Under the pieces are notes generated by a model, which was given only the letters and a program-made list of their open reading frames with translations, was not told where the DNA came from and did no database searches. Shown piece after piece: positions 6,051 through 43,458 of a stretch of DNA of 50,132 nucleotides. The DNA is taken from assembly GCA_016218495.1 (NCBI GenBank), contig JACRDU010000095.1:1-50132 (forward strand). The letters are read 5' to 3'. Every line of letters begins with the position of its first letter. The first letter of the stretch is position 1. Source of the stretch: Elusimicrobiota bacterium (GTDB lineage: Bacteria; Elusimicrobiota; Elusimicrobia; UBA1565). Both the position numbers and the translations under genes were made by a program.

Positions 6051-6945
6051 CGTTCTCCTCTCTGCGCTCCGGGTCCAGGTCCGGCGCGACGGGACGGCCG
6101 TTCTCCTCGGAGCCCACGACGCCTTCGGCGGCGAGCCAGGACTGCTTGTCGAGCGGCACGCCGGCCGGCCCCGGCTCCGGCTCCGAGGGGGCCGGCGGCT
6201 CCTGGCCGGGCCAGATCGGCGTGACGATCTCCGGCGGGGCCTCTTTCTTGTAGATGAGGATCTCGGCGAAGGGCCCTTCCTGCCGGCCGAACACGCGCTG
6301 GAGCTTTATGAGCTCCAGCAGGGCCAGGAAGCAGGAGATGATGGCGCGGCGGCGGCGCTCCCCGGCGAAGATGTCGCGCAGGGTGACGTAGGGCTTCTCG
6401 GCCAGCATCGCGAGGATCTTCTCCATCTTGTGCTCGATGGGATATTCCTCGCCGGTGACGACGCGACCCTCCGCCTCGGCCCGGTCGAGCACCTCGCGCA
6501 GCGTGGCGAGCAGGTCGAAGATGCGGATATTGAGCGCCTTCTCGCGCTCTTGGAAGGCCGGCGCCCCGCGGAAGAAGACGTCCGACCATTCGTCGGCCCG
6601 CTTCTGCAGGAAGCCCGCGGCCTGCTTGTACTTCTGGTATTCCTGGAGCTTGTTGACGAGCTCCAGGCGCGGGTCCGGGCCGCCCTCCCCGTTCTCCCCC
6701 TGCTCCTGGGAGGGCAGCAGGGCGCGGGCCTTGATCTGCATCAGGGTGGCGGCCATCACGAGGAAGTCCCCGGCCACCTCGAGGTTCAGCTCCTTCATGA
6801 GGTCCAGGTAGGAGAGGTACTCCTTGGTGATCTGGGCCACCGGGACGTTCTGGATGTCGAGGTCGTCCTTGCGGATGAGGTAGAGGAGGAGGTCCAGCGG
6901 GCCCTCGAACATCTCCAGATGGACTTCGTAGGGCTTCGGGCTCAT
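6037..6945 (-). CDS. scpA: Segregation and condensation protein ScpA (kleisin)
   Basis: ScpA bridges the SMC heads in bacterial condensin. The start is set at ATG 6945 (MSPKPYEVHLEMFEGPLDLLL), giving 302 residues. This ATG overlaps the trpS stop codon as ATGA, and the FEGPLDLLLYLI block is the canonical N-terminus. Further hallmarks are VAGDFLVMAATLMQIKARALLP (about 60-80) and a C-terminal winged-helix segment that includes VTLRDIFAG and RAIISCFLALLELIKLQRV. The last 60 residues are a Pro/Glu-rich extension (EPPAPSEPEPGPAG) longer than in most ScpA proteins. The open frame continues 68 codons upstream through trpS, but that part is arginine-rich shadow sequence and was excluded. Confidence 0.95.
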   Translation of the reverse strand: MSPKPYEVHLEMFEGPLDLLLYLIRKDDLDIQNVPVAQITKEYLSYLDLMKELNLEVAGDFLVMAATLMQIKARALLPSQEQGENGEGGPDPRLELVNKLQEYQKYKQAAGFLQKRADEWSDVFFRGAPAFQEREKALNIRIFDLLATLREVLDRAEAEGRVVTGEEYPIEHKMEKILAMLAEKPYVTLRDIFAGERRRRAIISCFLALLELIKLQRVFGRQEGPFAEILIYKKEAPPEIVTPIWPGQEPPAPSEPEPGPAGVPLDKQSWLAAEGVVGSEENGRPVAPDLDPERREENDGNA

Positions 6946-8024
6946 CTCAGGTTCATCGCCTTGCGCACGCGCTCCATCGTCCCTTCCGCCTCGGCCCGCG
7001 CCTTGGCGCTCCCCGCGGCGAGCAGGTCCTCGACCAGGCCCGGCTGGTCGAACTGCGCGCGCCGCGACCGGAACTCGTCGAAGGGCGTCGTCATCGACTG
7101 CAGGAGCTCCTTCTTGCAAGCCACGCAGCCGATGGAGCCGGCCCGGCACTCGTCGCCGCGCCGCGGCGCGAAGTCCGAGTAGAGCTTGTGCATCGCGTAC
7201 ACCACGCAGCCCTCGGGGTGGCCCGGGTCCTTCGCCCGGACCTTGAGGGGGTCGGTGTACATCGACATGACCTTGGGCTGCAGGCTCTGGGCGGTCTCGA
7301 AGAGGTCCACGGTGTTGCCGTAGGACTTCGACATCTTCCTGTTGTCCACGCCCGGCACCTTGGCCTGGGGGGTGACCATCGCCTGGGGCTCGACGAGGAC
7401 GCCGCCGTAGAAGCCGTTGAAGCGCCGCACGATCTCGCGCGAGATCTCGATGTGCGGCAGCTGGTCCTGGCCGACCGGCACGAGGTCGGCGCCGTAGAGC
7501 ACGATGTCCGCGGTCTGAAGCACGGGATAGCCCAGGAAGCCGTGCGTGCGCAGCTCGAGCCGGACGGCCTCGGGCTCGGGCTCGACGGCCTCGAGCTTGA
7601 AGCCCGCGACCGCCTCCCGCCGCTCCTTGGAGAGGACCCCGCCCTCCTCCACCGCCTTGGAGTGCTTGGTCTTGCCGAGCTCCTGGAGCTGCTCCTTGTA
7701 GGTCGGGTTGTTCTCCAGCCAGGAGATGGGCGTCACCATCGACAGGAGCAGGTTGAGCTCGGCATGCTGGGGGACCCGGGACTGCTGGAAGAAGACGCAG
7801 CGCTCGGGGTCGAGCCCCGCGGTCAGCCAGTCGAGGACCATCTCCCGCACGTTGTCCTTGAGCCGGGCGGTCTCCTCATAGCCCGTCGTGAACATGTGGT
7901 AGTCGGCCACGGCGAAGAAGCAGCGGTGGGTCCCCTGCAGCTCGACCCAGCGGCGCAGCGCCCCCCAGTAGTTGCCGATGTGCAGCCGTCCGGTGGGCCG
8001 CATCCCCGACATGACGGTCTTCAT
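6942..8024 (-). CDS. trpS: Tryptophanyl-tRNA synthetase
   Basis: A class I aminoacyl-tRNA synthetase that charges tRNA-Trp. Starting at ATG 8024 (MKTVMSGMRPTGRLHIGNYW) it has 360 residues. The HIGH motif appears as HIGN at 15-18 and KMSKS is exact at 230-234. The GQDQLPHIEISREI block and the C-terminal GCVACKKELL are also typical of TrpS. A segment of about 40 residues (118-158, from KTKHSKAVEEGG to PEAVRLELRTHG) sits between two conserved blocks and is longer than in the short E. coli or Bacillus enzymes. Start and stop overlap the M50 gene and scpA respectively as ATGA, so it is the second gene of the operon. Confidence 0.96.
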   Translation of the reverse strand: MKTVMSGMRPTGRLHIGNYWGALRRWVELQGTHRCFFAVADYHMFTTGYEETARLKDNVREMVLDWLTAGLDPERCVFFQQSRVPQHAELNLLLSMVTPISWLENNPTYKEQLQELGKTKHSKAVEEGGVLSKERREAVAGFKLEAVEPEPEAVRLELRTHGFLGYPVLQTADIVLYGADLVPVGQDQLPHIEISREIVRRFNGFYGGVLVEPQAMVTPQAKVPGVDNRKMSKSYGNTVDLFETAQSLQPKVMSMYTDPLKVRAKDPGHPEGCVVYAMHKLYSDFAPRRGDECRAGSIGCVACKKELLQSMTTPFDEFRSRRAQFDQPGLVEDLLAAGSAKARAEAEGTMERVRKAMNLR

Positions 8025-41977: not shown

Positions 41978-42772
41978 ATGCCCACGGCAAAATCCGCGAT
42001 GTCGCGCCTGGCGTCGTTCTGCCGGAACGAGGCCCTGCTGTCTCCAGGGGACAGGGTGCTGGCCGCCGTCTCCGGCGGGGCCGATTCGGTCTGCCTGGCA
42101 CACTGGTTGGCCGCGCAGAAGTCGAAGGGGCGCATCCGGGGCCTGACGCTGGTCCATTTCCACCACGGGCTGCGCGAAGCGGCGGACGGGGACGCGGAGT
42201 CGGTTCGGCGCCTCGCCCGCTCCCTGTCGCTGGAGTGCCTGGTCGAACGGCTCGACGTCCGGGCCCGGGCCAGCAAGGAGAGGCGGAGCCTCGAGGACGC
42301 CGGCCGCGCCCTGCGCTACCGGGCCCTGTCCCGGCTATGCCGGCGCGCCGGCTTCACAAAGGCCGCGCTGGGGCACCATCTCGACGACCAGTGCGAGACC
42401 TTCCTGCTGCACCTGCTGCGCGGGACCAGCGCCGACGGCCTGCTCGGCATCCCTTCCAGACGCCCCCTCGAGGGCTGCCGGGCCCTGGTCGTCCGCCCGC
42501 TCCTGGGAATCACGCGTGCCGAAGCGCTCGCCTACTGCCGCGGCTTCGGCCTGCGCTGGCGGGAGGACGAGAGCAACCGCGACACGGCCTTCACCCGCAA
42601 CTGGGTCCGGAGGAAGGTGCTGCCCCTGCTCGAGACGCGCAGCCCGCGCATCCGCGAGCATCTGGCCGCCATCTCCGCCGACCTGCGCGGACGAATCGGT
42701 GAATCGGTGTCAGACATTCGGAACTTTCGGAAGTTCCAGGCTATCGAACTTCCGAAAGTTCCGAATGTCTGA
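41978..42772 (+). CDS. tilS: tRNA(Ile)-lysidine synthase, short form ending in a palindrome
   Basis: TilS converts C34 of the tRNA-Ile CAU anticodon to lysidine, an essential step for AUA reading. From ATG 41978 the product has 264 residues. The PP-loop SGGADS (32-37), HHGLREAADGDAE, GHHLDDQCETFLLHLLRG and REDESNRDTAFTRNWVRRKVLPLLE are all conserved. The protein stops soon after the catalytic domain: the usual C-terminal tRNA-binding domains are missing. Its last 22 codons and the stop lie inside a 73-nt perfect palindrome. TAGGAT seven bases before the ATG is a weak -10. The MPTAKS start is chosen over an ATG 30 bases upstream. Confidence 0.88.
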   Translation: MPTAKSAMSRLASFCRNEALLSPGDRVLAAVSGGADSVCLAHWLAAQKSKGRIRGLTLVHFHHGLREAADGDAESVRRLARSLSLECLVERLDVRARASKERRSLEDAGRALRYRALSRLCRRAGFTKAALGHHLDDQCETFLLHLLRGTSADGLLGIPSRRPLEGCRALVVRPLLGITRAEALAYCRGFGLRWREDESNRDTAFTRNWVRRKVLPLLETRSPRIREHLAAISADLRGRIGESVSDIRNFRKFQAIELPKVPNV

Positions 42773-42777
42773 CACCG
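42705..42777. repeat. 73-nt perfect palindrome (32-bp arms, 9-nt loop)
   Basis: The left arm is 42705-42736 and its exact reverse complement is 42746-42777, with a 9-nt loop. Each arm also folds on itself (GGAACTT, TCGG, AAGTTCC on the left; GAACTT, CCGA, AAGTTC on the right), so the element can form a cruciform with nested hairpins. It contains the tilS stop codon, and its right edge touches the TAA stop of the convergent hydrolase gene. The outer GTGTCAGAC sequence resembles palindromes I associate with REP-like dispersed repeats; this is from memory and unchecked. No T-run follows. Confidence 0.95.
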
Positions 42778-43458
42778 TTACAGCAGCGCCTCGATGTGGC
42801 GGAAGGCCCCGCCCCTGAGCTCGGGGCCGTGCCCGCAGCCCAGGATGTCGACGTCCAGCTTCGCGGCCTTCGCCAGCGACGCCGACAGCGCCCCGCCGTC
42901 CTGGTTCAGCGCGTCGTGCACGCGGTGCAGGGTCCCGCCCCGGTTCGACATCAGGTCCCCGCAGAGCAGTATCTGGCGCACCGGCTCGTAGAGGCTGAGC
43001 GAGCCCGCCGAGTGCCCGGGCGTGTGCAGGACCTGCCACTGGGGCAGCCCGCGCATCGGAGAGCCCGGCTCGGTGGGCAGGACCGAATCGACGGGCCGCC
43101 AAGGGAGCGCCTGCCCGGCCACCGTCTCGGCCAGGAAGCCGTAGAGCCCCCTGAACGACGGCACGGGGACCCGTCCGACGAGGATCGGGATCTCGGCGGG
43201 ATGGGCGAAGACCTTGAGGGGCCTCAGGTCCAGCAGGCCCGAGAGGCCCCCGGCATGGTCGGCGTGGGCATGGGTCACGACGACCCGCCCCACGTTGTTG
43301 AGCGAGAACCCGTTGTCTTGGAGCTCTTCGAGCAGCGCCCCCACCGAACGCGAAGGGCCCGCGTCGACCAAGGTCAGGTCGCGGTCCCCTACGATGAGGT
43401 AGCTGTTCACGAAGCCGCCCGACTCCAGCCGGTAGACGCCTTCCGCGAGGCGGATCAC
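42778..43458 (-). CDS. Metallo-beta-lactamase-fold hydrolase
   Basis: A 226-residue dinuclear metal hydrolase. The HxHxDH site is THAHADHAGG (His63, His65, Asp67, His68), with further ligands in TPGHSAGSL and LCGDLM and a last His in GCGHGPEL. The length and the LHTPGHSAGSLSLYEP pattern fit the glyoxalase II-like/small hydrolase group, but the substrate is unknown. The GTG start at 43458 overlaps the cyclophilin stop as GTGA. It is the last gene of the operon from 48969, and its stop abuts the palindrome. Confidence 0.88.
   Translation of the reverse strand: MIRLAEGVYRLESGGFVNSYLIVGDRDLTLVDAGPSRSVGALLEELQDNGFSLNNVGRVVVTHAHADHAGGLSGLLDLRPLKVFAHPAEIPILVGRVPVPSFRGLYGFLAETVAGQALPWRPVDSVLPTEPGSPMRGLPQWQVLHTPGHSAGSLSLYEPVRQILLCGDLMSNRGGTLHRVHDALNQDGGALSASLAKAAKLDVDILGCGHGPELRGGAFRHIEALL

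Follow-up and report, generated by a model that had tools for sequence, protein, structure and literature searches.

We analysed a 50,132-nt stretch of Elusimicrobiota DNA (the window), which constitutes contig C57 of a 4.15-Mb genome assembled in 165 contigs (G000). Within it, a tilS gene on the plus strand (41978..42772, 264 aa) faces a gene for an MBL-fold hydrolase on the minus strand (42778..43458), and at their junction lies a hairpin element (42705..42777) composed of a 32-nt left arm (42705..42736, plus strand), a 9-nt loop (42737..42745) whose sequence and length vary among other copies, and a right arm (42746..42777, minus strand), the whole reading CGGTGTCAGACATTCGGAACTTTCGGAAGTTC, then CAGGCTATC, then a sequence exactly reverse-complementary to the opening 32 nt. 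An earlier note on this DNA had described precisely such a 73-nt palindrome with perfect 32-bp arms and a nested self-complementary tract within the arm, and both features are present. The outer octamer GGTGTCAG (42706..42713, plus strand), repeated on the other arm (42769..42776, minus strand), is the defining pattern of our order-wide hairpin search; inside it follow two direct 9-nt units, ATTCGGAAC and TTTCGGAAG (42716..42733, plus strand), matching a period of 9 in the representative arm of this subfamily. We set the boundaries of the core, GGTGTCAG...CTGACACC, at 42706-42776 because a comparison of 97 copies (see below) shows base pairing dropping to 0.54 at the first position outside and to 0.27-0.35 at the next five. 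Among the 50 inverted repeats of the window (arms up to 300 nt apart), this hairpin ranks as the longest and most complementary, and its predicted RNA fold reaches -58.7 kcal/mol; no intrinsic terminator was detected at the site, and the hairpin matched no Rfam family.

The tilS frame runs into the element and closes at a TGA at 42770-42772, the last 22 codons and the stop lying in or straddling the hairpin, and the opposite edge of the element meets exactly the TAA of the MBL-fold gene (42778-42780, minus strand), as the earlier note had read both ends. That note had further proposed that insertion may have shortened tilS, which lacks its usual C-terminal domains. Only the PP-loop domain was indeed found, but this state is normal for relatives: TilS measures 238-267 aa in 28 of the 29 relatives whose gene ends were examined, an equally short length that owes nothing to this element. 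Moreover, tilS faces the same MBL gene in G002, G003 and G004 (in the latter two, MBL identity was judged by similar bases beyond the tilS stop), and in all three the junction is free of any element. Truncation by insertion is thus ruled out. The element-free junctions also imply that the element reached the tilS/MBL junction after the split from these three relatives; it swapped the last few tilS residues for a 22-codon tail, an effect other than truncation, and annotated tails such as VSDIRNFRKF should accordingly be read as element and not as protein evolution. Since the genus relatives are too distant (TilS 68-69% identical), the window copy offers no empty site for comparison at the nucleotide level, and a G025 copy served in its place (see below). 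The single exception among the 29 relatives, L063 of G001, has a tilS frame of 481 aa, which extends for ~240 codons through unrelated sequence, and L075 carries an in-frame TGA within its tilS match.

A genome-wide search with the arm bore out the suggestion that the palindrome is a repeat mobilised by a RAYT-like or Y1 transposase. Rather than a single copy, the sequence GGTGTCAGACNTTC has 30 exact copies in G000, all of them paired, which resolve into 15 facing pairs: 14 solo hairpins (core ~54-75 nt) and one pair 978 nt apart. Both ends of this 978-bp element are the same arms as those of the hairpins (they differ from each other at 2 of 27 positions), and they enclose an intact Y1 (HUH) gene at C38:6001-6816; of the possible readings, mobilisation by a RAYT-like enzyme fits this arrangement best by a wide margin. 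The encoded protein scores above the Pfam Y1_Tnp cut-off (36.3 bits vs 23), finds its best NCBIfam match in REP_Tyr_transpos (65.8 bits, under the cut-off of 80), and weakly matches 4er8 TnpArep in the PDB (E 0.11) and, at its C-terminus, HTH_29 (E 8e-4, under its cut-off). An alignment of 14 rows, representing 13 distinct loci (L232 and L335 being the same gene), has invariant NHxH and Y...Y...NPV regions along with other residues. The arm matching, the Pfam score and the weak NCBIfam and PDB scores mark the protein as a putative RAYT, by means of which the hairpins very probably move.

Three further Y1 loci of G000 have ends without GGTGTCAG. Two other Y1 genes of G000 (C65, C97) are flanked by long inverted repeats of different types, at 6443-6482 and 7489-7528 in one locus (L187; 40 nt at 90%) and at 6453-6520 and 7400-7467 in the second (L188; 68 nt at 78%). 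The genome also holds a second hairpin subfamily, of TCTTTTAGACGTTAGAC type, in 3 copies (L297, L298 and L299, on C33, C134 and C165), and none of the four Y1 loci examined in G000 matches it.

Across the order, the pattern GGTGTCAG N36-66 CTGACACC is present in 25 of 57 genomes, compared with none for a reversed control pattern; the window element itself, as DNA, is confined to the genus (3 of 57). These counts bear on whether the palindrome is an assembly chimera or the product of chance. Inverted-repeat assembly chimeras exist, and the assembly is divided into many contigs, but 32 perfect pairs, 15 sites with different flanks and the order-wide distribution refute this reading, whose probability is negligible. 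Inside the octamer, sequence differs wholly among subfamilies, and most subfamilies bear direct repeats of period 7-9 nt, each with other sequences; this signal is significant when summed over arms (lags 7-9: z 3.0, 6.2 and 2.0), with 6 of 14 representative arms individually not below 0.05. Genes for related Y1 proteins are carried by 46 of the 57 genomes, so the presence of such a gene alone would prove little, and one genome (G048, 72% complete) contains 21 hairpins while yielding no Y1 hit at E 1e-10.

More informative is the correspondence between particular transposase genes and particular arms. In G000 the ends of the C38 element lie 0-2 differences (of 27) from 14 of 17 hairpins, the other 3 standing at 8-12. 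G035 has three transposase elements, matching 12, 3 and 1 of the 16 hairpins examined at 0-1 differences per 27, with the rest at 7 or more; the element of G002 is at 0 differences from 8 of 10 hairpins; and two elements of G001 match 2 and 3 of 12 hairpins at 0, the other 7 being 4-5 differences from the second element. Pairing is loose in G044, where the single element examined is 2-5 differences from 9 of 27 hairpins. This matching of arm subfamilies to particular transposase genes is the strongest evidence that enzyme and hairpins belong together. The order thus offers many matched pairs, including a genome with three non-overlapping ones, and makes repeat recognition by these enzymes directly testable by swapping.

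Beyond this set, a scan of 79 distant RAYT loci for GTGTC[AT]G[AGT]C found a flanking arm in L092 only, an Elusimicrobia MAG contig to which a transposase locus of the relative G009 is identical over 400 nt, an identity that assigns the order to Elusimicrobiota. An unbiased inverted-repeat scan of related loci (74 scored, after 5 of the 79 were dropped as too short) recovered flanking repeats scoring 14 or more in 47, with controls at most 13, and these were mostly GGGGTCAG-type ends. We therefore rejected GGTGTCAG as the end of distant RAYT loci.

The character of the arms also bears on whether these are true GTAG-class REPs or REPINs, moved by a RAYT of group 2 or 3. The plan is the same in those parts of the literature on which we drew: inverted conserved ends, a diverse spacer, an extragenic 3' site, a cognate Y1 enzyme and compensatory changes (PMC3116915, PMC8049555, PMC3733652). 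Every arm, however, lacks the GTAG tag and has the octamer GGTGTCAG instead, which refutes strict membership; in several subfamilies the arm lacks a nested palindrome, and the C-terminus of the transposase may be HTH-like (the weak HTH_29 match), as described for the TIR-flanked subclass 2.1. We regard this reading as very unlikely. The earlier label of REP-type is apt only in part: neither a GTAG nor a CGTC tag is present, and the nested sub-palindrome characterises the subfamily of the window, not the wider family.

To describe how the two arms of a copy relate, we compared left and right arms within copies against arms re-paired among copies, and in most subfamilies tested the arms agreed better within the copy. 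Differences numbered 29 within copies vs 60.7 re-paired in G000 (0/5000), 2 vs 18.6 in G035 (5/5000), 1 vs 10.6 in one G025 subfamily (0/5000) and 0 vs 17.7 in G001 (22/5000); in G044 they numbered 11 vs 193, the latter inflated by clustering that lumps several subfamilies. Agreement was weak in G002 (16 vs 21.4; 284/5000), and the other G025 subfamily (n=6) showed no within-copy agreement (9 differences vs a permuted mean of 7.0). The centres were compared in stricter subfamily groups than those of the re-pairing test. Conservation is far lower in the centres than in the arms: 7 copies of G001 have arms identical across the 24 nt compared on each side, yet their centre similarity of -0.11 is no better than that of shuffles (-0.17); in other subfamilies the centres are somewhat above shuffles, partly because they continue the stem. 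Perfect arms had been taken by the earlier note to imply a recent insertion or active maintenance; recent insertion need not be assumed, since the two arms of a copy tend to change in step. REPINs, too, have diverse spacers and undergo compensatory changes, as described in the portions of PMC3116915 and PMC8049555 used here.

Placement was assessed in the 97 copies with both octamers exact, from six genomes: 17 from G000, 12 from G001, 10 from G002, 27 of 35 from G044, 16 of 37 from G035 and 15 of 16 from G025, G002 and the other genomes of the set having been chosen non-randomly and the arms of the RAYT element treated apart. Genes were called with a home-made codon model in place of a standard gene finder, and null positions were drawn from the same loci, which had been fetched because they hold the element. 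In 46 of the 97 copies the distance from the core to a stop codon was 0-6 nt, vs 4-10% of non-coding positions within those loci, and 71 copies lay downstream of a stop codon 0-20 nt away, vs 10-26% of such positions. By the gene caller, 20 of the 97 copies were entered by a gene; a nearby stop or an entering gene accompanied 80, and only 4 copies were inside a called gene. The flanking gene pairs were convergent at 31 copies, in one direction at 53 and divergent at 10, with 3 copies at contig ends. At one G025 copy the stop codon of the gene is kept in G024 without the element, so the stop preceded that insertion. According to the parts of PMC3733652 consulted, a comparable preference for 3' ends is seen with REPs elsewhere in bacteria. 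Placement just after stops amounts to low-harm spread of a repeat in a gene-dense genome. Separately, the genes flanking one G025 hairpin (L330) recur in G044 (L276), where the hairpin close to them belongs to another subfamily, as though one gene end had been hit on two occasions.

This placement could be made by target choice or by selection, which are inseparable here, and it is an argument for regarding the element as a host-useful RNA hairpin kept between convergent genes, where it would decouple them, stabilise 3' ends or terminate transcription in both directions, its mobility being incidental. The strong 3'-end placement, the 31 of 97 copies between convergent genes, with 10 in divergent gaps, and the high stability of the hairpin agree with such a function. 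The site, however, has neither an intrinsic terminator nor an Rfam family, and the orthologous junction in G002, G003 and G004 does without any element, which is therefore not required; on balance we consider an RNA function as the primary explanation unlikely, though less so than the other alternatives weighed here. A second possibility is a coding insert in the manner of the Rickettsia palindromic elements, whose role would be to add peptide to proteins. Like those elements, the palindrome can add codons to a gene, as the 22 codons of tilS and the other genes running into copies attest; unlike them, it is found mostly downstream of stops and with a matched transposase. With so few copies inside called genes and all three frames closed in 28.9% of cases, vs 29.0% for shuffled arms, this role is highly improbable, and the same control led us to reject a three-frame translation stop.

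No excess of 2-8 nt target-site duplications over re-paired flanks was detected in the 97 copies, and none was convincing. This result, along with the Y1 identity of the gene between matched arms, makes an ordinary DDE-transposase MITE extremely unlikely, for all that short length, inverted repeats and a low copy number would suit one. Concerning the target, 12 of 17 G000 copies have AAC directly next to the core on one or both sides, and flanks in other genomes differ from it. Many G001 hairpins (L288, L290, L293, L294, L295, L203 and L204) have an extra GGTGTC at 10-20 nt from the core, in some cases to the left and to the right, which gives the impression of nested elements or of outer repeats. 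At several G044 loci (L261, L264, L267, L281, L283 and L285), the flank CGTTAGAG, which lies beyond the core, shows complementarity to CTAACG within the same arm; by analogy, a guide-and-target pairing of the IS200/IS605 kind is possible.

Taken together, these results make it probable (roughly 0.86) that tilS ends in a hairpin transposon of REPIN-like form that is non-autonomous. The element would consist of two facing terminal inverted repeats of a Y1 (HUH) transposase element with few bases between them. IS200/IS605 enzymes cut single strands and paste 3' of a short target; by this analogy, the transposase of G000:C38:6001-6816 would recognise the arms in folded single-stranded DNA, cut at the octamer and insert the hairpin on the 3' side of such a target, mostly AAC in this genome. 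The window hairpin would have inserted 1 nt beyond the MBL stop codon, and because tilS converges on that stop, tilS reads into the element and gains its 22-codon tail and stop. A folded or template-switching intermediate that copies one arm from the other may keep the arms matched, leaving the centre free to change. More tentatively, and with a greater chance of being wrong than right, each transposase lineage might have its own address, with hairpins rebuilt by fold-back and targeted past stops. The shared octamer would then serve for cutting, and the C-terminal domain would read a pair of 7-9-nt direct repeats peculiar to the lineage. Hairpins would not be simply copied; fold-back would allow one arm to template the synthesis of the other, and this would account for the identical arms with unrelated centres in G001. 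If true, this would describe a self-limiting, gene-sparing hairpin transposon.

Among known systems, the best analogue in form is the REPIN (Bertels and Rainey 2011, PMC3116915; PMC8049555). As far as the consulted portions of these sources describe them, REPINs likewise have two inverted conserved ends around a short, highly diverse spacer, a single-strand hairpin, compensatory changes, a cognate transposase and an extragenic location, and in G000 the inverted units are all paired around centres that differ. Unlike REPINs as portrayed there, the ends of the present elements are not GTAG-tagged REPs, and genomes hold ~15 to 40 copies in place of hundreds. The closest known system that fits is the TIRtron with its TIRYT transposase, a TIR-flanked branch of RAYTs. 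TIRtrons, TIR repeats and TIRYT transposases are described by Di Nocera et al. 2013 (PMC3733652), and the TIR-flanked RAYT subclass 2.1, with an HTH-type C-terminus, by Quentin et al. 2018 (PMC6006769). In the parts of these papers covered, a Y1 enzyme is similarly enclosed by terminal inverted repeats, its HTH-type C-terminus having a candidate counterpart here in the HTH_29 match under its cut-off, TIRs recur in the genome as solo or paired repeats, some TIRs are self-complementary, and the TIR motif GGGGWSAS resembles GGGGTCAG, frequent at the ends of related loci, the octamer here being GGTGTCAG. Unlike TIRtrons as described there, the hairpins are uniform (53-82 nt), always paired in their own genome, equipped with subfamily-specific direct repeats and spread over a whole Elusimicrobiota order. 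The string 'Elusimicrob' is absent from the main text of PMC3733652, and we found no account of these hairpins in literature searches on RAYT/REP, REPIN, TIRYT and Elusimicrobia palindromes, of which the TIRtron papers were covered in part. TIR-flanked Y1 elements, named in 2013, have been little followed up in the literature we found; the kind of element is already known, and what appears to be new is this variant, together with the matched pairs across the order.
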